NCBI RefSeq assembly: GCF_001182725.1
Contig: NZ_CWHU01000003.1
Coordinates: 62,001-126,000 of the forward strand
Length of the DNA: 64,000 nucleotides
Direction of reading: 5' to 3'
Source of the DNA: Anaerococcus jeddahensis
Lineage (GTDB): Bacteria > Bacillota > Clostridia > Tissierellales > Peptoniphilaceae
Made by a program: the position numbers and the translations under genes. The notes below the pieces were generated by a model, which was not told the DNA's origin, ran no database searches, and saw nothing but the letters and a program-made list of their open reading frames with translations. The stretch's first letter is position 1. Every line of letters starts with the position of its first letter. Below are positions 3,988-14,342 of the stretch, one piece after another.

Positions 3988-4933
3988 ATTTCAATACATC
4001 TGATGTTATTAATCAACCTTACAGTTAAAGTTTTATAAGGATAGTCCTAATAATTTCAATACATCTAATTTTATCAATCAACGTTGACACTATAAAATCA
4101 CTTGCATTATTATAGCGTATTTCAATACATCTAATGTTATCAATCAACGCCTTTAAAGCTTGCTGAAAAGATTTCTGGAGATGAATTTCAATACATCTAA
4201 TGTTATCAATCAACCTATGGCACTATTCAGATTTTTAAAAGCTCCCTTTATTTCAATACATCTAATGTTAGTAATCAACAGAAAAGCTGAATATACGCCA
4301 GATTTTAAATATTAATTTCAATACATCTAATGTTAGTAATCAACATAATAAGATTAAAAATATATCATCATCTAGCTTATTTCAATACATCTAATGTTAG
4401 TAATCAACCAAAATTTGGGGGTCTAGGGGGGGCCCCGTATTTATTTCAATACATCTAATGTTAGTAATCAACAGAAATAAGGATTTTTTGAAGCAAAAAG
4501 AAGTCTAATTTCAATACATCTAATGTTAGTAATCAACATTTGAAGCATTAGAAAAGGCACCATTCTAATGGAAATATTTCAATACATCTAATGTTAGTAA
4601 TCAACAAGTTATAAGCAAATATTAGATTTTGCAGAAATAAAATTTCAATACATCTAATGTTAGTAATCAACGGAGTGGGACAAAGTATCCACTATGATAG
4701 TGTATAATTTCAATACATCTAATGTTAGTAATCAACCCTACCAACATCAAAAGAAACTGAAGAATATTCAATTTCAATACATCTAATGTTAGTAATCAAC
4801 ATAGTGAAAATGCTGATGTACAGTTTATGAAATTTATATTTCAATACATCTAATGTTAGTAATCAACAGACGGCACAAGCGAGGGAGCCGATGGAATTAT
4901 AGAATTTCAATACATCTAATGTTAGCAATCAAC
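3988..4933 (-). CRISPR. Type I-B CRISPR array, 15 repeats and 14 spacers
   Basis: Fifteen 30-nt repeats start at 3988, 4053, 4119, 4185, 4250, 4315, 4379, 4443, 4508, 4576, 4642, 4707, 4771, 4838 and 4904. Spacers are 34-38 nt. In crRNA orientation (minus strand) the repeat begins GTTGATTACTAACATTAG and ends GATGTATTGAAAT, giving an 8-nt ATTGAAAT 5' handle typical of type I-B. Orientation is supported by the co-directional cas genes, the handle, and repeat decay at the low-coordinate end (first four repeats differ at positions 22-23 and elsewhere). The leader end is therefore at 4934 and beyond. The leader-proximal repeat carries one variant base (GC instead of GT on the plus strand). Confidence 0.98.
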
Positions 4934-5068: not shown

Positions 5069-5350
5069 TTATATTATTATATCTTCTTCTAGTGATTTGT
5101 ATTTTCCTATTGTTTCTTCTTCGAAAGTTTCTTTGTTGTACATTTTTATTATTGTTACAAAGTCTTCTTCTTTTTTTATTGTCTTTTCAATTTCTCTTTC
5201 TAGAGCAATAATTTTTGATGGGCTTATTTCTCCTCTAAATACTGAATTTTGGTGGTGATTTAAATATTTTTTGCAGACTTTAAATACCTTGTTTACTCTT
5301 TTTTCTCCAACATCATAGAATAGAAATATATAATTGTAATTTTTTGCCAC
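5069..5350 (-). CDS. cas2: CRISPR-associated endonuclease Cas2
   Basis: A 93-aa Cas2 with the N-terminal ferredoxin-like strand NYNYIFLFYDVGEKR (conserved Asp at the end of strand 1) and the SVFRGEISPSKI segment. Cas2 is the structural core of the Cas1-Cas2 spacer integration complex. A longer open frame reaches back to 5422, but a GTG at 5350 with AGGAAA upstream gives the correct family length, so that start is used. It overlaps the cas1 stop by one base (TAGTG), indicating translational coupling. It is the last gene before the leader and array. Confidence 0.95.
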   Translation of the reverse strand: MAKNYNYIFLFYDVGEKRVNKVFKVCKKYLNHHQNSVFRGEISPSKIIALEREIEKTIKKEEDFVTIIKMYNKETFEEETIGKYKSLEEDIII

Positions 5351-6348
5351 TAATATTTCCTTTCTAATAAATAAGGTTCGAATTCTTTGTCTTCTAGTAT
5401 ATATTTTATTAATTTGTAGCAATCTAGCTTTATTTGTGTTTGATAGCTTACATTTCTTTTTAATTTTTCATTTTTAAATTTTGTTTCTATTCTTTTTTCA
5501 AAGGCTGCTATAAATATTTTCTTACCCTCATCGTTTAGGATACAATAATTTTGCTCTTTTAAAAAATGATCTTCTACTCTAATTTTTCTATTATTTACTA
5601 AATCAAAAATTGTTTTAAATACTAATATTGGCTTGAACGCCTCGCACATATCTAAGGAAAGAGAAAATCTTGATTCACTCGGCTCGTGCAAATAACTTAT
5701 AGCTTGATTTAAGTGTGTCCTGTAGATTGCTGTTATTGTTTTTGTGTATAGAAGTGAATTTCCAAATGATATTAGGGCATTTATCGGGTTATCTGGAGGT
5801 CTTCTTACTCTTTTGTTTAAAATAAAATCTTCATTTAGAAAATATTTGAAAGAATCATAAAATCCTTGCCAAATTTTTCCTTCTATATATAAAATTTGTT
5901 TTATGTCATTTGATTTTTCAAGCTCATTTAGAATTTCATTTTTTAAATAATCAAGGAAAGTTTTCACTTCTTTTTTGTCATGTTTATAGTAGTGATATAG
6001 GACTTGATAAATATTTTTCCCTATGGCTTCTACTATTTTTTTAGCTATTTCTATTCTTTTTTCTTTGTAGGCTTCTACTTGTTTTACCAAGAGTTTTCCG
6101 CTTATATATTTTTCTCTTGTATAAAATGTTCCCGAATAGTTTCCGTAATAATTGAAAAAATGTAGAACTATATGCTTACTTGCAAGAAAATCTAATAATT
6201 TTGTATTTATTGTCGTCTCGCTTAGTATGTAAAGCTCTCTTATGCTTTCTATGGGTATATAAATATTTTTTCCATTTACCCTATAAACTAAAGAATTATC
6301 TTTTCTTTTTATTTGTCCATCTGTTAAAAGATATTTTGTTTTTCCCAT
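5350..6348 (-). CDS. cas1: CRISPR-associated endonuclease Cas1
   Basis: A 332-aa type I-B Cas1, the integrase that inserts new spacers at the leader end. The N-terminal beta domain is followed by the helical catalytic domain with metal ligands E156 (YIEGKIW), H221 (SYLHEP) and D233 (SLSLDMCEAF). The start chosen is the ATG at 6348 with AGGTGAAAAT directly upstream, giving the family-typical MGKTKYLLTDG; the open frame extends seven codons further into cas4. The ribosome-binding site overlaps the cas4 stop, so translation is probably coupled. Confidence 0.97.
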   Translation of the reverse strand: MGKTKYLLTDGQIKRKDNSLVYRVNGKNIYIPIESIRELYILSETTINTKLLDFLASKHIVLHFFNYYGNYSGTFYTREKYISGKLLVKQVEAYKEKRIEIAKKIVEAIGKNIYQVLYHYYKHDKKEVKTFLDYLKNEILNELEKSNDIKQILYIEGKIWQGFYDSFKYFLNEDFILNKRVRRPPDNPINALISFGNSLLYTKTITAIYRTHLNQAISYLHEPSESRFSLSLDMCEAFKPILVFKTIFDLVNNRKIRVEDHFLKEQNYCILNDEGKKIFIAAFEKRIETKFKNEKLKRNVSYQTQIKLDCYKLIKYILEDKEFEPYLLERKY

Positions 6349-6356
6349 ATTTTCAC

Positions 6357-6842
6357 CTAGATCTTGCAATATTCATAATAGGCACACTTTGTGCATCCTT
6401 TTATTTTTTTAAATTTTGGAATCTCTTCTTTTGAAATAAATTCTTCTATTTCATTAAGCAATTTTTCTAGCTCTTTTTCTTTTTTATCGTCCAAGTCCAG
6501 ATATTCTATTTTTTTGCCTTGATTGTTTTCAACAAATTCTAATTTTCCTTTTTTGATTATTCCTTTTTTCTTTAAAATATAAAGACAATAGTAAAGTTGC
6601 CATCTGGCTGCTTCTTTGTCTGCATCTGATTTTTTGATTTCTACTAAAAATTTATCTGTAATTTTATCAACCACTATATTGTCTATTTTTATTTCAGCAT
6701 TTTTCTTATTTTCGCTTTTATTTAAGTGGATTTCTTTTCCAATTTTCACAAGTTCACTGTTATCTTCGAAATTTAACTTGTTGGCAAACAAATAGCACTG
6801 TCTTTTACAATGAAAATAATAATTTATTATTGTTCCATTCAT
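6357..6842 (-). CDS. cas4: CRISPR-associated exonuclease Cas4
   Basis: A 161-aa RecB-like nuclease with an iron-sulfur cluster. One N-terminal cysteine (C12 in YYFHCKRQCYLF) and three C-terminal cysteines (C150, C153, C159 in CTKCAYYEYC) are the expected 4Fe-4S ligands. The nuclease core has GKEIH and VEIKKS (Lys motif) followed by a QLYYCLYIL helix. Cas4 trims prespacers and defines PAM and orientation during adaptation. Start and cas3 stop overlap as ATGA. Confidence 0.95.
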   Translation of the reverse strand: MNGTIINYYFHCKRQCYLFANKLNFEDNSELVKIGKEIHLNKSENKKNAEIKIDNIVVDKITDKFLVEIKKSDADKEAARWQLYYCLYILKKKGIIKKGKLEFVENNQGKKIEYLDLDDKKEKELEKLLNEIEEFISKEEIPKFKKIKGCTKCAYYEYCKI

Positions 6843-9361
6843 ATTATGTCCCCAAATTCATCATTTTCATCTTTATAATTTAATCTTTCCTTGTAAATAT
6901 ATCTTTCCCCATCTTCTATATAAACAAGATTTCCTATTATGTCGTTTGCTGTTTCTATATATTTTAAAAAATCTCTTTTTGAAATTCTGTAGATAAAGTC
7001 TGACATTTGAGCTTTCTTTTCTGAAAGTTTTACAATTTTTTCGCTATATTCCATATCTTTATTTTCAATAAGATTTACGTATTGTTCCCAAATTTCAGAT
7101 CCCCTTATTTCTTTTCCATCTATCTTTAAATTTCTATTTAAAAATATATCAAGCATTTGCCTATTATCATCTATCAGTTCCATATGTTTGGATATTTTTT
7201 CGAAATTTAATTTAATAAGATCTTTTTCAAAATTTATATAGGAATATTCGTCCCTATCATTTTTTGCTTTTTGTAATTTTAGGGCAAAATATCTGGAAAA
7301 ATCTTTTGTTTGGAGATCTTTTCTCCTATCTTTATTTCTTAATGTCAAAATATCCTGGGCGTTTTTATAAATTTTCTTTTCATCTGCCATATCAAAAAAA
7401 TATGCTACAGCATCATTTTTTAAAGCTGACCTTCCAATTCTTCCCAAAAACTGTTCTTCATTTTCAAGCATAGATATATCTTTATAACCAATATCCATAT
7501 CAATATCGACCCCAGCTTCTACAACTTGACTTGCAATTAATATGGTTTTTTTCCTTATTTCACCACTTATTTCTCCAATAACTTGAGCCTTTCTTCTTAA
7601 ATTGTCATCACCTGTTAAAATTAAAATATTATAATTTTCAAAAAATTCTTCCTCATTTATTAATTTAAAGAAATTTTCAGCATCTTTTTTTCTAATAAAT
7701 TCAACCAATATTTTTTGATGATTTCCTATATTTTCTTTCATATGTTTTAAAAGATGGTCATAGTCAATTTTTCCCAAATCCAACAAATCATAATTTATTT
7801 TGACCCTATTTTTAAACAAAGGCTCATCAAAAATTTCTCTTGGATTTTTAATCAATTTTCCTATATTTCTCTTTTTATCCTCATCTAACAAAGCTGATAG
7901 ATCTGGAAGAGTTGCTGACATAATAATTATTTTTAAATTAAAAATCTTTGCATAAATCTCCAACATTTCTATAATTTCATTCCACAAATCTTCCCTGTAG
8001 GCTTGAATTTCATCCAAAACAATGACAGAATTTGTAAGTTGATAAAGACCAAAAATATTCTTTCTTTTATTTGAAAAAAGCGTATTAAAAAGCCCTACAT
8101 TAGATGTGATTATAAAAGGAGAATGGAGAAACTGTCTATCTAGGAGAGATTTTATATAATAATCCCAATCTTTCATAAAATCATCATCTTGGCCTTTTCC
8201 AATTGGAGTAATTGAATTTATTATAGAAATATTTTCTTCAATGCTGGTTTTTTTATAATATTTTAAGAGGGTATTTTTATTTTGCTCCACCAAGGTATTA
8301 AAGGGATAGGCATAGATTATTTTATTAATCTGATCATTTAATAATTTGAAAGATAAATTCATAGCAGTATTAGATTTGCCCGATCCTGTAGGAGCTTCCA
8401 GGAAAAATATATTTTTATCCCTTTCTTCTTTTAAATTTTTTTCTGCATTTAGAAAAATTTTTGTCCTAAGGTCGTTTATATTTTCTTTTTTCTCATAAGA
8501 CTTACTTTCTTGGCTTTTTCTAATATTTTTTATGAGTTTTGAATTGTTATATATTTTTATAAGGTCATTTTGATCTATTTTTGGAAGCTTTGTCTTATAT
8601 CCATTCATATAATCAGTTGTAGCATAAAAGTCAGCTGCAACTAAAATAGAGTAGATTAATCTTGTGTAGATGTATATTTCTTTGGATTTTGATTTTTTGA
8701 AATCTATATAAGAAGAATCCATATCAAAATCATAGATCAGATCCATAATTTCATTAGATATTTCTTCAAAATCATCAAAAAATTCTTCCTTTATATTCTT
8801 ATCTTTTCTTAAATATTTTAAAGTTTTATAAAATTTACTTCTTTCATCAATAAATAAATCAAAAAAATTATTGATTGAATATGAAAAATCAGACAAATCA
8901 CTATGGTGCCTTGAAATTATAAAGGCATTTAAAAAAATAATATAATAAAATTTTTCTTTTAATTCATCATCTATTTCTAAATTTCTAATTTTCCCTACAC
9001 AAATATAAACATAAATAAATGATGAAAGTATAGAATGTTCTCCTTCTATTCCCAAATCTGTAAGATCTATTTCGAAATTTTTTAATTTATTTCTTTGAAA
9101 TCTCGAATTTATCTTTCCCAAATCGTGAAATAGTATTACAGAATCTATTAAATCTTTAAAATGGGTATATCCTTCTTTTTCATCGAAAATACTTAGGAAA
9201 AATCTTTCAAAGACTCTTCCCAAGTTTTTTTCATCTAGAATTTTTTGGTAATATCCAAAAGTTTTATTAATATGGTCTTGTAAATTTTCTTTACTATTTC
9301 CTACCCCATCTATGTGACCTAGGTATTGATCTGGATTTTTAACTATAAAATCAAGCTTCAT
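6839..9361 (-). CDS. cas3: CRISPR-associated helicase/nuclease Cas3 (HD-helicase fusion)
   Basis: An 840-aa effector nuclease of type I interference. The N-terminal HD nuclease domain shows FHDLGK (H79, D80), EHS (about 109) and RHH (152-153). The SF2 helicase follows with Walker A APTGSGKS (about 323-330), a DEIQ motif II (450-453), MSAT motif III (about 481), QVVEAGVDID and GRIGR. The HD and helicase are fused, as usual. The start is taken at the ATG at 9361 with AAGAAGGAATTT upstream; the frame is open nine codons further. It overlaps the cas5 stop by 11 nt. Cascade recruits it to unwind and degrade target DNA. Confidence 0.97.
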   Translation of the reverse strand: MKLDFIVKNPDQYLGHIDGVGNSKENLQDHINKTFGYYQKILDEKNLGRVFERFFLSIFDEKEGYTHFKDLIDSVILFHDLGKINSRFQRNKLKNFEIDLTDLGIEGEHSILSSFIYVYICVGKIRNLEIDDELKEKFYYIIFLNAFIISRHHSDLSDFSYSINNFFDLFIDERSKFYKTLKYLRKDKNIKEEFFDDFEEISNEIMDLIYDFDMDSSYIDFKKSKSKEIYIYTRLIYSILVAADFYATTDYMNGYKTKLPKIDQNDLIKIYNNSKLIKNIRKSQESKSYEKKENINDLRTKIFLNAEKNLKEERDKNIFFLEAPTGSGKSNTAMNLSFKLLNDQINKIIYAYPFNTLVEQNKNTLLKYYKKTSIEENISIINSITPIGKGQDDDFMKDWDYYIKSLLDRQFLHSPFIITSNVGLFNTLFSNKRKNIFGLYQLTNSVIVLDEIQAYREDLWNEIIEMLEIYAKIFNLKIIIMSATLPDLSALLDEDKKRNIGKLIKNPREIFDEPLFKNRVKINYDLLDLGKIDYDHLLKHMKENIGNHQKILVEFIRKKDAENFFKLINEEEFFENYNILILTGDDNLRRKAQVIGEISGEIRKKTILIASQVVEAGVDIDMDIGYKDISMLENEEQFLGRIGRSALKNDAVAYFFDMADEKKIYKNAQDILTLRNKDRRKDLQTKDFSRYFALKLQKAKNDRDEYSYINFEKDLIKLNFEKISKHMELIDDNRQMLDIFLNRNLKIDGKEIRGSEIWEQYVNLIENKDMEYSEKIVKLSEKKAQMSDFIYRISKRDFLKYIETANDIIGNLVYIEDGERYIYKERLNYKDENDEFGDII

Positions 9362-10088
9362 AAATTCCTTCTTCACTGTAAAAGACAAGTTTTAAATTAT
9401 TATCTATATCTTTAAATATTACATTTTTATCTGATTTTTTCCTAACTTCTCCATTACTTGCCAAGGTTTTTTTTCTTATATATCTTTCAGTGTCTTCCTC
9501 TAAGAAAAATGGAAGATTTTCTTCATATTTATAAATCTTACTTTTTAGCCTTAGTTTAAAATCTTCAGCTAAAAATAGAGAATCTATAATATTTTCATCA
9601 CCTTTTCCTATATCAACTATTTTACAATCACTAATATTTGCCATATGATCATTTGTTCCAAGATAAGGAGTAAATATTGTTTTTTTATCTAAAATATATT
9701 CTTTTATCATTTCACTTTGGTCATTTTCTAATAAAATATAAATTAGCCATGAAGGATTTTCTAGCCAAACTTGTTTTACTATTAGATTTCCACCTTCTTC
9801 GTTTGAAGCAAAAGCTGTAGAATTATTAAATATTTGCAACTTCTTATCAAAAATTCCATCATTTCCCTCTGAAACTATAGAAATTTTAAGGTCTTTTAAT
9901 TTTTTATAAAATTCAGGATATTTTTCCCTGTCCTTTTCGTTATAGCCCTTGTATCCAAGAATTGCTCCCAAAAGTCCAAGAAGGGCGACTCTATGAATTT
10001 GACCATAAGTATAATATAGATAAGTATTTACATCTGGCTGTTTGAAAAAACCTGTTTTACCACTTAATCTAAATCTCAAAGCTTTCAT
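9351..10088 (-). CDS. cas5: Type I-B Cascade subunit Cas5
   Basis: A 245-aa RAMP-fold protein. The N-terminus MKALRFRLSGKTGFFKQPD followed by YLYYTYGQIHRVALLGLLGAILG is characteristic of Cas5, which caps the 5' handle of the crRNA in Cascade. It begins two bases after the cas7 stop and its 3' end overlaps cas3, fitting a single cas operon. I see no sign of the catalytic activity found in Cas5d, expected since a separate Cas6 exists. Confidence 0.95.
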   Translation of the reverse strand: MKALRFRLSGKTGFFKQPDVNTYLYYTYGQIHRVALLGLLGAILGYKGYNEKDREKYPEFYKKLKDLKISIVSEGNDGIFDKKLQIFNNSTAFASNEEGGNLIVKQVWLENPSWLIYILLENDQSEMIKEYILDKKTIFTPYLGTNDHMANISDCKIVDIGKGDENIIDSLFLAEDFKLRLKSKIYKYEENLPFFLEEDTERYIRKKTLASNGEVRKKSDKNVIFKDIDNNLKLVFYSEEGIYEA

Positions 10089-10089
10089 A

Positions 10090-11043
10090 TTAAGCCTCGA
10101 TTTTTTCTCTTGTGTATATATTATAAATTTCTATATTATCTGGAAAATCAACTAAATCTATTTTTTCATTGTCATAATAAATTTGAATTTTTTCTATATC
10201 ATCTCTTTTTTCTAGAATAGATTTTCCTGTGAAAATTATCTTATCCTTAAAGTTTTCTTCAGAATTTTTTTCAAATATAATATAATTTGCAAGACTTGGA
10301 AGATAAGTATCTAATTTTGTTTCAACAAACATAGAAAATTCATTGTTTGCTCCTTCTTTGGCATTTGTTGCATAGGAAGTTGCAGAATCAATTGCTGCTA
10401 ATTTGAATTTTTCATAATCTTTTTCGCTATAGCCTTCTGTAACTCCTAATTTTTTGTAATCATCATAAGCTTTTGGATTTATTACAAAAGAATAGAAATA
10501 ATGAGCTTCATCAGATACAATTTTATTTCCCAAAGTAGAATTTTGAGCTTCTTCTCCTGATTTACTTTTTTCTTTTGCATTAGGATCTCTAAAAGGAGAT
10601 AAGATTTGTTGAACTTGAGCTTTACTGTCTTCATATTTGTTCATTCCTTGGGAAATTTGCACAGCTCCAGTTATAGAAATATTATTTCCTTTTTCTGCAA
10701 AGGTAGCTCCAAAATTTTTTACATCTGTTGCAGAAAACAAGTTAGTCAAAATTTTTTCTGATTCACCAGCTTTAATTTCTGTATCAAAAACTTGTTCATA
10801 TCTTTCTTTTAAGGTTCTAGGCATCAAATTTCCCTTATCTCCTATGGTGTAACTTTTTATATAAATTACCTTCTCGCCTTGTTCAGACCATTTTTTCTTC
10901 ATAGTATATTTTAAAGCCTTATCCGATCCAAAAATTTCACCTGAAGACAAAGATTTTGGAAATCCAGAAAAATCTGCATTCCAATTTGCCATTTTTGATC
11001 CTATACCAATAATTCCATAAACTCTTTTATTTAGCTCTGTCAT
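10090..11043 (-). CDS. cas7: Type I-B Cascade backbone subunit Cas7 (Csh2 type)
   Basis: A 317-aa Cas7 that polymerises along the crRNA spacer. The N-terminal MTELNKRVYGIIGIGSKMANWNADF, the central LFSATDVKNFGATFAEKG...ISITGAVQ and the DEAHYFYSFVINP block are typical of the Csh2/Cas7b family. The start at 11043 has AAGGAGAAGAAG directly upstream within the end of cas8b (17-nt overlap); the frame is open five codons further. In Cascade, Cas7 subunits kink the guide-target duplex so every sixth guide base is unpaired, which matters for the solo-guide element upstream of cas6. Confidence 0.95.
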   Translation of the reverse strand: MTELNKRVYGIIGIGSKMANWNADFSGFPKSLSSGEIFGSDKALKYTMKKKWSEQGEKVIYIKSYTIGDKGNLMPRTLKERYEQVFDTEIKAGESEKILTNLFSATDVKNFGATFAEKGNNISITGAVQISQGMNKYEDSKAQVQQILSPFRDPNAKEKSKSGEEAQNSTLGNKIVSDEAHYFYSFVINPKAYDDYKKLGVTEGYSEKDYEKFKLAAIDSATSYATNAKEGANNEFSMFVETKLDTYLPSLANYIIFEKNSEENFKDKIIFTGKSILEKRDDIEKIQIYYDNEKIDLVDFPDNIEIYNIYTREKIEA

Positions 11044-12799
11044 CTTCTTCTCCTTCAATTAGTTTTTTACCATAAAGATATGATTCTCCTAAAAATCCTG
11101 CCATTATCCACTTATCATCAGCCTTTTCCTTTTCAAATTCATAAACAAGAATTTGACTTACAGCCATATTAAACCTTATATCCTTAGCGCTAATATTGTG
11201 TGCATAAGTTACAAGCAAATGTTCTAAGTTTTCAATTATCCTGGAAGTTTTTTGCCCACCCAAGAAATTCCTAATAAAGGTTAAATTTTTATCGCCAATA
11301 TTTGAATAATTAAGCAATTTTCTCAAAACTTGTCCTACAGCAAAGAAGATTTCCTCGTCACCTTCAAGAGAAATATCTCCAGCTGATTCCAACTTTCTTT
11401 TCATATTTTCTTGAAAATCCATATAATTTTCCTCCTTTTTTTCATAATATTCTTTCAAAGATAAATAATAATTAAATTGGGTTATAGCCTTGGTCTTATA
11501 ATCATTTAAAAGAGAATATTTAATAGAATCTTCCAAAAGTCTATTTAAAATCCTAACTATTTCTTTATTTTTATTATTTATTATGGCAAATTCCAAGCTT
11601 TTCCCATAGTTTAAAATTATCATTTTAAAATTCAATTCTTTTATGTTCAAATTCTCCAAATTATACTTATTTCTTTGGTAGTAATTATAGAAAAAAACTG
11701 AATCTATTTTATTTAAAAGTATCTTTTTTTCAGTAACAAGACCGTATTTTTCTTCTCTTTTAGAAAAATCTTCGGCTTTAGCATTTTCTGGCAAATATTC
11801 TTCAATGTATTGATTAATTTGAATTTCTATATCATCAAAATCTTTTGAATAAATATTATAGTCTAAAATTGCTGCTTCATTTTTTTCAGGATACAAGAAC
11901 AATTCAAAACCTATGAAATTTTTATTTTTTTCAAAACTTATTTCCTTATTTCCAGTATTAAAATATATTCTTTTATAGCCTCTTTTGATAGATGATGAAA
12001 GATAAGAAAAAAATAAATTTTGTAATTTTGCCATATCTGCACTTATTAGGTAGGGTTGTTTTACTTTTCTAGATAAATTTTCTAAATAAGGCTTTTTATC
12101 ATTTATTCCTAAATTATCATCAGAAACACCAAAAGTTTTTCCACTAACTTCTATATTATATTTATTCTTATTAAATAAATTGGTAAGTAAATACCTATCT
12201 TGCTCTCTTTGATAGGCTTTTTTTGTTTTTTCTTCATCTTCATAGATAAAAAATATTTTGAAATAATCTTTTGAGCTTGTATCAATATCAAAGATATTTT
12301 TATTATCAATATTTTCAACAAGCCACTTTTCGATTTTTTCAGCCTCACCTACATTGACGCTACCCAATTTCCCTTCATTTTCTAAGTAAAGATTTTTTGC
12401 TTCTTTATCCTTATATTTTTTGAGCGGATTTTTTAAAACCAAAAAATACCTTTCAATAGCCTCATTATTAATCTTATCTTCATAAGAATTTTCCTTGAAG
12501 AAAAAACTATAATAATTAGAACTGTGAATAGATTTTTTATTGTCAATACTTTTATTCATGTTTAAGAGATTGGAATTAAAATCCAAATCTCTAATAAAAG
12601 AATAATTTAATGGTTGATTTTCGATTTTCTTTTCTTTTTTATCATATTTTATCTTAAAACTTGGGCTAACCTCCCAAGGTCCTTCTTCTTTCATAGTAAC
12701 AAGATAATATTTACCATCTTTAGGAATATATCCTCTCAAAACCATATCAGGATCTTCGTCCAAATTCTTTTTAAAAATCTCCAAACATTCTTCTAGCAC
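11027..12799 (-). CDS. cas8b: Type I-B Cascade large subunit Cas8b (Csh1 type)
   Basis: A 590-aa large subunit, identified mainly by position between cas6 and cas7, length, and the helical C-terminal region. Cas8b recognises the PAM and recruits Cas3. Translation starts at a GTG (12799) with an excellent AGGAGGTGATTAT site; an overlapping ATG three bases upstream is followed immediately by a stop in its frame and is not used. Similarity among Cas8b proteins is low, so subfamily assignment rests on gene order. Confidence 0.88.
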   Translation of the reverse strand: MLEECLEIFKKNLDEDPDMVLRGYIPKDGKYYLVTMKEEGPWEVSPSFKIKYDKKEKKIENQPLNYSFIRDLDFNSNLLNMNKSIDNKKSIHSSNYYSFFFKENSYEDKINNEAIERYFLVLKNPLKKYKDKEAKNLYLENEGKLGSVNVGEAEKIEKWLVENIDNKNIFDIDTSSKDYFKIFFIYEDEEKTKKAYQREQDRYLLTNLFNKNKYNIEVSGKTFGVSDDNLGINDKKPYLENLSRKVKQPYLISADMAKLQNLFFSYLSSSIKRGYKRIYFNTGNKEISFEKNKNFIGFELFLYPEKNEAAILDYNIYSKDFDDIEIQINQYIEEYLPENAKAEDFSKREEKYGLVTEKKILLNKIDSVFFYNYYQRNKYNLENLNIKELNFKMIILNYGKSLEFAIINNKNKEIVRILNRLLEDSIKYSLLNDYKTKAITQFNYYLSLKEYYEKKEENYMDFQENMKRKLESAGDISLEGDEEIFFAVGQVLRKLLNYSNIGDKNLTFIRNFLGGQKTSRIIENLEHLLVTYAHNISAKDIRFNMAVSQILVYEFEKEKADDKWIMAGFLGESYLYGKKLIEGEEDDRAK

Positions 12800-12810
12800 A
12801 TAATCACCTC

Positions 12811-13497
12811 CTAAATTAAATATTTGTATCCCAAAAATCCTGCACCATAAGCTGCATTTTCACTAAATGTAACACCAAGAGCAAAATAAGCTAAGTCCTG
12901 ACTTCTTTTATCCATATTAATTTCAAGCTCAAGCTTATCGCCCAAAAGTTTTATGTTTTTAAATTTAAAAGCGATTGGCCCTTCATTCAAAAATTTAAGG
13001 CTTGTATAAAATTTCCCCTCTTCTATATTTTCATCAATGAAAAATTTGTATTTTTTTATTAAATTGTCTGTGATTCTCTTTTCAAATTCTTCTAAAGTCA
13101 AATTATCTTTCCAATATCCAAAATCATTTTTTATAATTATTGGATTTAAGGTAAATAATTTTGAAATAGGTGATTTTGGAATTATCCTAACATCAACAGT
13201 TAAATTTTTAAAAACCTTATCCTTATACTCAGAAAAACCATTTAACATATAATTTACAAATTCTTCATCAACCGACCTAATTCTGTACTGATAGACCATG
13301 TTTTTTTTGTAGAACTTTTTTATTGGATAAAGATTGTCGTGACAGTAGGATTTATAATTTTTAGCTTTGTGCATATCTAAAAATTTTTCATTTTCTGACA
13401 AATAAGAAATTATAGCCTTAGCAATAAATCCCAAAGAATCTGAAGAATCTATATCTTCTAATAAAAAGGTTCTTATTTTTAGTTCATAAATCTTCAT
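12811..13497 (-). CDS. cas6: CRISPR RNA endonuclease Cas6
   Basis: A 228-aa RAMP endonuclease that cleaves pre-crRNA within the repeat, leaving the 8-nt 5' handle. The N-terminal beta strand is followed by the MHKAKNYKSYCHDNLYPIK block (candidate catalytic H43 or H53). The C-terminal glycine-rich loop AAYGAGFLGYKYL is the Cas6 signature. A GAAAGGAGG site precedes the ATG. It is the first gene of the cas operon, immediately downstream of the predicted promoter and solo-guide element. Confidence 0.93.
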   Translation of the reverse strand: MKIYELKIRTFLLEDIDSSDSLGFIAKAIISYLSENEKFLDMHKAKNYKSYCHDNLYPIKKFYKKNMVYQYRIRSVDEEFVNYMLNGFSEYKDKVFKNLTVDVRIIPKSPISKLFTLNPIIIKNDFGYWKDNLTLEEFEKRITDNLIKKYKFFIDENIEEGKFYTSLKFLNEGPIAFKFKNIKLLGDKLELEINMDKRSQDLAYFALGVTFSENAAYGAGFLGYKYLI

Positions 13498-13514
13498 TTT
13501 CTGCCTCCTTTCTA

Positions 13515-13541
13515 GAAAATTTAATTATAATTATTAACTGA
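13515..13541 (-). promoter_or_regulatory. Predicted self-target (protospacer plus TCA) of the solo guide in the cas6 leader
   Basis: On the minus strand the site reads TCA then GTTAATAATTATAAT. Compared with the spacer-like segment GTTAAAAATTAAAAT, positions 1-5, 7-11 and 13-15 match, and mismatches are at 6 and 12; beyond 15 the match is lost. It lies about +7 to +30 from the predicted start site of cas6 transcription. Binding of Cascade here would block transcription, and the incomplete distal match would be expected to prevent Cas3 cleavage. Confidence 0.6.
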
Positions 13542-13551
13542 TTATATATTT

Positions 13552-13579
13552 ATAATATCATCATTTTAAAAAATGTCAA
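13552..13579 (-). promoter_or_regulatory. Predicted sigma-A promoter of the cas operon
   Basis: A perfect -35 TTGACA (13579-13574 on the minus strand), a 16-nt spacer and -10 TATTAT (13557-13552). The start site would be near 13545, leaving a leader of about 48 nt before cas6. The -35 abuts the degenerate repeat at 13579-13608. Confidence 0.75.
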
Positions 13580-13662
13580 TTTTTTTACATCTCATGTTAG
13601 TAATCAAATATTTATATATTTTAATTTTTAACATTTCAATACTTATCAAGTTACTAATTAAA
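13579..13662 (-). ncRNA. Solitary CRISPR-like guide element upstream of cas6 (CreR/CreA-like)
   Basis: Two degenerate copies of the array repeat in crRNA orientation. The first (13662-13633) matches 23 of 30 positions and keeps the full ATTGAAAT handle. The second (13608-13579) matches 25 of 30, keeps the 5' part TGATTACTAACAT and has lost the handle. Between them is a 24-nt spacer-like segment, shorter than the 34-38 nt array spacers. A weak promoter with -35 TTTTCA (13690-13685), 18-nt spacing and -10 TATATT (13666-13661) lies just upstream. The layout matches CRISPR-derived regulatory guides that reprogram Cascade to repress cas genes or a toxin RNA. Expression is not shown. Confidence 0.7.
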
Positions 13663-13899
13663 TATATAAATACTCTACCTCTTATGAAAAATTTAACCAC
13701 AAGTTCATTATTGTTTTAAAAAGTTTATATTATTTTCAAAAAAATTTCTCCCATCAAATATTGTTAATTTTATATTAATGATTTATAATACCCCTAGAGA
13801 TAGTATTTAAGTTTTAAAACTATACTCTTTTACACCATTATATTTAATTTTAAAAATGAGCTTATATATTTAGTGAGACTCAAAATATTTTGTAATTTG

Positions 13900-13948
13900 G
13901 CAAGGATTTTGGTTTTTTTTGTATAAACTTTTTCCTTGCTTTTTTTTT
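13900..13948 (+). promoter_or_regulatory. Hairpin plus T-run in the panD leader (possible attenuator)
   Basis: GCAAGGA (13900-13906) pairs with TCCTTGC (13933-13939), followed directly by nine T and then the AGGAG ribosome-binding site of panD. A terminator this close to the start of a gene suggests premature termination control or a leftover terminator. The loop is long (26 nt) and T-rich. From 13663 to 13899 I see only AT-rich DNA with the weak promoter described for the solo guide and no other gene. Confidence 0.5.
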
Positions 13949-13958
13949 AGGAGATTTT

Positions 13959-14342
13959 ATGGAAATTGAAATGTTAAAAGGAAAAATTCATAGGGCTACT
14001 GTGACTCAGGCTGAACTTAACTATGTTGGATCCATTACTGTTGATGAGGTTTTACTCGAGGGTGCTGGAATTAGAGAGTATCAAAAAGTTCAAGTAGTCG
14101 ATATTAATAATGGAAATAGACTTGAAACTTATACCATTGCTGGTGAGAAAAACAGTGGTGTCATTTGTTTAAATGGAGCTGCTGCAAGACATTTTGCACC
14201 TGGTGATAAGGTAATTATTATGGCTTATGCCTCTTATAGTGAAAAAGATTTGGAAAATTATAGTCCAAAGGTTGTTTTTGTTGATGATGAAAATAAAATC
14301 AAAAAAATTTCATCTTACGAAAAGCACGGGACTTTGTTGTAG
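13959..14342 (+). CDS. panD: Aspartate 1-decarboxylase
   Basis: A 127-aa pyruvoyl-dependent enzyme converting L-aspartate to beta-alanine for pantothenate synthesis. The proenzyme self-cleaves between G24 and S25 (NYVGSITVD), generating the pyruvoyl group on S25; the start gives the same numbering as the well-studied enterobacterial protein. The conserved N-terminal [16 protein letters not shown] and the [12 protein letters not shown] segment are present. The gene has AGGAG before the ATG and is followed 53 bp later by panC. Confidence 0.96.

Follow-up and report, generated by a model that had tools for sequence, protein, structure and literature searches.

Does the type I-B effector encoded at this locus limit its own synthesis by means of a guide kept beside its promoter? 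The window (the whole 64,000-nucleotide stretch of Anaerococcus jeddahensis analyzed here, in whose numbering positions are given) holds a minus-strand cas operon, running from cas6 to cas2 and followed by a CRISPR array; the nearest named relatives of the genome are A. ihuae, A. obesiensis, A. vaginalis and A. hydrogenalis. A first-pass annotation had noted a 'solo' guide in front of cas6 that resembles the leader of the operon, and had proposed that Cascade, when abundant, represses its own genes.

Liu et al. 2023 reportedly described cas-regulating CreR RNAs of type I-B, I-E and V-A systems, and Shmakov et al. 2023 are said to have found standalone repeats and mini-arrays, mostly of type I, with spacers partly complementary to cas promoters, a likeness that the present element would share. 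Cas9, too, reportedly represses its own operon via a partial match of a natural single-guide RNA; that system is said to be of type II, with a tracrRNA-derived guide, and its components are unrelated to those considered here. According to excerpts of PMC12737573, PMC12948488 and PMC13131331, effectors of types I-B, I-E and V-A repress their own cas genes through CreR RNAs of limited promoter complementarity. The sequence evidence presented below makes it very probable that the element in front of cas6 is a CreR, that is, a crRNA-like RNA through which Cascade represses its own operon without cutting the DNA.

The cas operon and its mini-array

The features of the locus are summarized in Table 1. 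The system is assigned to subtype I-B because Cas5 and Cas1 exceed the cut-offs of their type I-B models. Cas6 scores slightly below the TIGR01877 cut-off of 58.65 bits, and no match to cas8 was found among the NCBIfam and Pfam models.

Table 1. Features of the cas locus and of the region upstream of cas6
Feature	Position	Strand	Remarks
psiR1, first degenerate repeat, TTTAATTAGTAACTTGATAAGTATTGAAAT	13633-13662	minus	23 of 30 positions identical to the array repeat
Pseudo-spacer (guide), GTTAAAAATTAAAATATATAAATA	13609-13632	minus	24 nt
psiR2, second degenerate repeat, TTTGATTACTAACATGAGATGTAAAAAAAT	13579-13608	minus	25 of 30 positions identical to the array repeat
cas promoter -35, TTGACA	13574-13579	minus	predicted; 11 of 12 consensus positions together with the -10
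Extended -10, TATTAT with preceding TG	13552-13557	minus	predicted; 16-nt spacing
Target PAM, TCA	13539-13541	minus	same motif beside the protospacer of an array spacer
Candidate regulatory target, GTTAATAATTATAAT	13524-13538	minus	matched by guide positions 1-5, 7-11 and 13-15
cas6	12811-13497	minus	first gene of the operon, start 41 nt 3' of the target start; TIGR01877, 54.8 bits
cas8	11027-12799	minus	named by operon position only
cas7	10090-11058	minus	PF05107
cas5	9351-10088	minus	TIGR02592 (type I-B model), above cut-off
cas3	6839-9388	minus	HD and helicase domains
cas4	6357-6842	minus	model match
cas1	5350-6369	minus	TIGR03641 (type I-B model), above cut-off
cas2	5069-5422	minus	model match
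CRISPR array	3988-4933	minus	15 repeats, mostly GTTGATTACTAACATTAGATGTATTGAAAT; 14 spacers of 34-38 nt

Along the minus strand, the order on the 5' side of cas6 is psiR1, a 24-nt spacer, psiR2, a near-consensus promoter, TCA and the spacer-like site. The guide is in fact not solo but flanked by the two degenerate repeats, with which it forms a crRNA-like mini-array (13579-13662) inside the CRISPR-Cas locus and outside the array. The identical repeats and full-length spacer of an ordinary array unit are not found in it: the repeats have diverged, and the spacer is 24 nt long as against 34-38 nt in the array. psiR1 retains the 8-nt handle ATTGAAAT, and its stem consists of paired ACTT/AAGT in place of the ACAT/ATGT of the array repeat. 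In psiR2 the ACAT/ATGT stem is retained and the handle is gone; its final base is at the same time the first base of the cas -35. A search for mobile copies of the mini-array yielded weak partial matches in three records, two of them from a single Lactobacillus phage and the third from a plasmid, which were judged from the match listing, and for the plasmid also from the feature table, to be chance matches of AT-rich DNA.

No clear promoter stands out for the guide itself; the stretch is AT-rich, and 11 promoter-like matches were counted in it versus 5.5 expected from shuffles. Relative to the transcription start predicted for the cas promoter, the target lies about 7 to 21 nt on the 3' side; the earlier placement of the target 'just downstream' of the predicted cas start site corresponds to a target start at about +7.

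Match to the cas6 leader and choice of PAM

The guide and the cas6 leader agree at 13 of 15 positions, with mismatches solely at positions 6 and 12, directly behind TCA, and past position 15 only scattered agreement is seen. On these points the first-pass annotation was accurate; its span (13515-13541) comprises TCA and 24 nt. A bare count of 13 of 15 is weak in AT-rich DNA, because, when the 110-nt leader was dinucleotide-shuffled 20,000 times, 365 of the shuffles reached it without a PAM. Any 13 of 15 behind TCA was obtained in 6 of the 20,000 shuffles, the same 13 positions without a PAM in 7, and a TCA site with all 13 positions except 6 and 12 matched in only 2. The earlier caution about chance matching in AT-rich DNA, and the weight then laid on the mismatch pattern, were thus both right (365 vs 2 of 20,000), and equally good matches, which the first-pass annotation had suggested looking for by shuffling, are not frequent.

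A scan of the assembly (1,903,534 bases, 5 contigs, 98.98% complete) with TCAGTTAANAATTANAAT found a single perfect site, that of the cas6 leader, and nine more with two mismatches. The guide sequence itself has two further 15/15 copies elsewhere in the genome, behind AAA and TTT and without TCA; a better PAM-flanked target, for which the same annotation had proposed a genome-wide scan, was not found. As described for CreR, the spacer shows partial complementarity to the promoter or leader region of the cas operon to which it belongs, and a PAM adjoins the site. Since guide and mRNA leader share one orientation, simple antisense pairing between that stretch and the cas mRNA is ruled out; a CreR-like mechanism most likely acts on DNA.

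TCA is reported as a PAM of clostridial type I-B systems (excerpts of PMC4860712). Spacer 6 of the window array (4538-4575, minus strand, ATTTCCATTAGAATGG...) matches IMG/VR contig IMGVR_UViG_2547132149_000005 at 38 of 38 positions, behind TTCA; it is the one true protospacer recovered when pieces of 8 of the 14 window spacers, one per spacer, were searched for exactly in viral contigs. This protospacer points to the interference PAM of the host and to a virus of this group. A 17-nt spacer piece that matched two viral contigs was dropped, as only 23 of 35 spacer positions agree, and no protospacers of the window array were found in phage records. In the upstream regions surveyed below, when no PAM was required and all 13 positions had to be matched, the sites of 30 guides were preceded by TCA and that of one by TCT, with no other motif (147 guides). 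When the setting was relaxed on a set of 53 regions, to 12 or more of the 13 positions and to 12-mers with up to two mismatches, the motif was TCA 16 times and CAA, TCC and TCT once each. TCA holds up as the matching PAM, both at the protospacer of the system's own array spacer and at the full-match sites of 30 guides. The regulatory site looks as if it bears a proper interference PAM, so that an absence of self-cleavage would have to stem from the guide or the short match.

Retention and variation in related loci

Among the 31 genomes of the genus, this cas6 is present in six. The window and A. ihuae read GTTAA in both guide and target, whereas A. vaginalis ATCC 51170 and strain PH9 read ACTAA in both, with TCA retained. 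Two such paired seed changes would be hard to explain without selection on pairing. The guide-target match, retained against divergence as in CreR, has nevertheless been lost in two of the six Anaerococcus loci. In A. obesiensis (L011) and A. hydrogenalis (L013) the first repeat has decayed, and a cognate site was not seen in either leader. The element is dispensable, since in both genomes the alignments of cas6, cas7 and cas8 show 89-95% identity and are nearly complete (1-589 of 590 for cas8), and the arrays are still present, with 41 and 10 repeats found, respectively. For the divergent guide of A. obesiensis no perfect cognate target was found in the scan; 20 sites with at most two mismatches were recovered versus 11 for the reversed control pattern, and of these 20, two differ at just one position, which lies in the PAM (CCA and TTA).

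In the last 160 nt up to and into cas6 of the same two loci, the consensus cas promoter is gone along with the CreR-like element. Within the last 120 nt no promoter scored in one of them and 8.75 was the best score in the other, as compared with 11.25 in the four Anaerococcus loci that have the element. The joint loss of element and consensus promoter is an association seen in two genomes only.

For a wider survey, Cas6 relatives were collected from the genus (31 genomes), the family (130), the order (249), a draw from the class (391) and the family of one clostridial hit (206), all partly overlapping sets, as well as from one name scan of genome contigs, and additional upstream regions were included. 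Candidate guides were called from 12-mers within two mismatches of ATGTATTKAAAT, a definition that includes true array spacers, and pairs of guide and site were scored with all 15 positions weighted alike and TCA required. A cas6 fragment at a contig edge (L039) was excluded and duplicates of the window and of L010-L014 (L004-L009) were not counted; four regions have less than 400 nt of upstream sequence. Of the resulting 106 cas6-upstream regions, 79 contained at least one candidate guide (228 guides in total). Pairs reaching 11, 12 and 13 of 15 positions numbered 40, 38 and 35, respectively, whereas 651, 108 and 20 of 23,940 pairings did so when guides were swapped against other loci, a control that is conservative because near relatives are included. 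Each of the 38 pairs at 12 or more of 15 comes from a different locus; since the regions were selected by Cas6 similarity, this proportion (38 of 106) should not be taken as a census of type I-B systems. No qualifying pair was found in the other 68 regions, of which 27 lacked any candidate guide and 41 had candidates that matched no site, and the feature is therefore not universal under these criteria.

After removal of three near-duplicate loci, 35 distinct guides remained. Mismatches occupied 42 of 70 cells at positions 6 and 12, and 6 of 455 at the remaining 13 of the first 15 positions, which bears out the earlier reading of 6 and 12 as tolerated positions. Further out, they occupied 16 of 70 cells at positions 16-17, 19 of 35 at position 18 and 119 of 210 at positions 19-24. 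In the set of 53 regions, where some loci close to the ends of contigs have wrong start points, omitting every position divisible by six gave 14 guides with perfect TCA sites, and each of the other six-base offsets gave one. Selection for a mismatch at position 6, by which cleavage might be avoided, was suggested by the first set (14 of 16) and vanished in the larger one: 22 of 35 guides mismatch at position 6 and 20 of 35 at position 12, compared with a fraction of 0.567 at positions 19-24 (P = 0.29 and 0.55). Position 6 looks neutral.

The anatomy of the mini-array recurs in these loci. The 4-bp stem before the psiR1 handle is fully paired in 33 of 37 mini-arrays versus a background of 9.5%, its 3' arm having belonged to the search motif and its 5' arm not; replaced stems are paired across loci, e.g., ACTT/AAGT, ACAA/TTGT and GCAT/ATGC. 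The second base of the handle agrees in 30 of 30 psiR1 and in 3 of 30 psiR2, the retention of the psiR1 handle being partly a product of the search criterion, as is the retention of the psiR2 stem. A psiR2 that keeps its stem and loses its handle fits cutting of both repeats by Cas6, because the handle after the second cut would be discarded. In the 30 mini-arrays with a recognizable second repeat (of 37 examined), the pseudo-spacer has a median length of 26 nt, with 16 of 30 at most 26 nt, 25 of 30 at most 30 nt and the longest 45 nt; one mini-array, which starts too near the edge of its region, was omitted from the repeat counts.

A promoter-like pair lies near the target in 32 of the 38 loci, with target starts at -66 to -36 (14 loci), -14 to +24 (17) and +42 (1) from the predicted start; these promoters are consensus matches, uncertain in AT-rich DNA, and were taken into account only in the vicinity of the target.

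Several loci depart from the common layout. In L028 the mini-array is located 83-126 nt before cas6, 3' of the predicted cas promoter and within the cas leader, and cutting of the cas mRNA may therefore be what releases the guide; the target of this guide sits at the predicted cas promoter. L043, L079 and L082 differ from the other loci of the 38 in that the TCA-flanked guide match is on the opposite strand, 5' of the mini-array. L034 (TCT PAM), L047 (three mismatches in the handle) and L015 and L016 (divergent handles) look like further members outside the 38. The latter two, from Clostridium MAGs and judged by eye, have a TCA site 5' of the mini-array (in L015, guide AATATTTTTAAT and site TCA-AATATATTTAAT), an arrangement that looks as though the guide's own transcript were repressed as well. 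Region L042:1-1500 has one match to a Clostridioides phage record, and a repeat-like handle was not found in a 2.4-kb stretch of that record.

Cascade self-repression and its alternatives

The proposed mechanism would operate as follows. The mini-array just 5' of the cas promoter would be transcribed, and cutting of both repeats by Cas6 would release an RNA made up of the 8-nt handle, the guide and a stem at the 3' end. Loaded with this RNA, Cascade would recognize TCA and base-pair through guide positions 1-5, 7-11 and 13-15 with the template strand of the cas6 leader, leaving positions 6 and 12 flipped out and unconstrained. The bound complex could then block transcription initiation or early elongation without cleavage by Cas3, because the guide is short and the match ends near position 15. 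Cascade would thereby limit its own operon, and the operon would be less repressed whenever crRNAs from the array competed for Cascade or an anti-CRISPR inactivated it. The self-repression idea of the first-pass annotation gains support from every prediction that was followed in the sequence: the PAM, the paired changes of guide and target, the pattern at positions 6 and 12, the short guide, the target at the predicted cas promoter and the single perfect site in the assembly.

Chance resemblance between a leftover repeat and an unrelated leader could be invoked for so AT-rich a region, in which 13 of 15 without a PAM is easily reached (365 of 20,000 shuffles), but this explanation is extremely unlikely: TCA together with the exact mismatch positions arose in 2 of 20,000 shuffles, and the chance reading is already contradicted by the paired seed changes in relatives and by the swap control (at 12 of 15, 38 of 228 guides versus 108 of 23,940 swapped pairings). 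The two degenerate repeats also look like a remnant, and two of the six Anaerococcus copies have decayed, as might be expected of an ordinary old spacer that self-targets by accident or of a decaying array remnant under no selection. Such a remnant would, however, not be expected to maintain its stem through paired changes, a guide of 24 rather than 34-38 nt and a guide-target match while both partners change; the constraint that 35 distinct guides show at 13 of 15 positions, i.e., the conservation of positions 1-5, 7-11 and 13-15, already contradicts the remnant explanation and leaves it hardly credible.

Two further alternatives accept a functional guide. In a CreTA-type addiction module, the guide would repress a toxin expressed from the targeted promoter and repression of cas would be incidental. 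The anatomy is indeed that of CreA from haloarchaeal type I-B CreTA, with psiR1, spacer and psiR2, psiR1 being the more diverged repeat, pairing at 1-5 and 7-11, positions 6 and 12 dispensable and a PAM beside the site (excerpts of PMC8501985 and PMC9458426); there, experiments showed that positions 1-5 and 7-11 were needed and that compensating changes restored function (excerpts of PMC8501985). CreA targets a toxin promoter, whereas the Anaerococcus guide targets the leader of the cas operon, with the target start 41 nt from the cas6 start codon, which leaves scarcely any space for a separate toxin gene; no Rfam model matched in 13480-13960, and an addiction module is very unlikely here. Cascade might also bind in a role other than repression, for instance bringing in Cas3 for priming, or activating transcription through the exclusion of another factor, since sequence reveals the potential for binding and not the sign of its effect. 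This is highly improbable, given that in 32 of the 38 loci the target falls between about -66 and +42 of the predicted start and that type I-B crRNAs of such length are reported to repress: those of at most 26 nt repress and do not cleave in Parageobacillus thermoglucosidasius, the corresponding figure for Haloarcula hispanica being 24 nt (excerpts of PMC10551041).

The reading as a CreR that represses its own operon is therefore preferred. Like CreR, the element would encode, within a CRISPR-Cas locus, a crRNA-like RNA of limited complementarity to the cas promoter, suited to self-repression by the effector, and no difference in kind was found. The proposed mechanism is that of the published CreR, which the first-pass annotation did not say; what is new is the breadth and the clean six-base footprint. 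Compared with CreR, the host group (Anaerococcus and clostridial type I-B loci), the use of TCA as PAM and the large number of unrelated guide-target pairs appear to be new. No paper joining Anaerococcus, CRISPR and type I-B was found in the literature searched, and the titles and abstract openings examined contain no description of such repression at clostridial cas6 leaders, although other surveys may list such loci.

The evidence tips slightly towards a broader view, in which CreR self-repression is common in this clostridial type I-B family and has been re-aimed repeatedly: each lineage would have its own guide-target pair, with 13 paired positions behind TCA and positions 6 and 12 drifting as if unpaired, aimed just 5' of or over the -35 or near the start, and loss of CreR would go with loss of the strong cas promoter (A. 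obesiensis and A. hydrogenalis), as if that promoter were harmful when unrepressed. The loci supply a PAM (TCA) and a pairing rule as used in living genomes, about 35 natural guide-target pairs with which rules of Cascade off-target binding and repression can be tested, and a rule for finding such elements in AT-rich genomes (a degenerate repeat, a TCA site, and positions 6 and 12 left free). Sequence alone indicates that many type I-B systems of one group set their own dose through a built-in guide.
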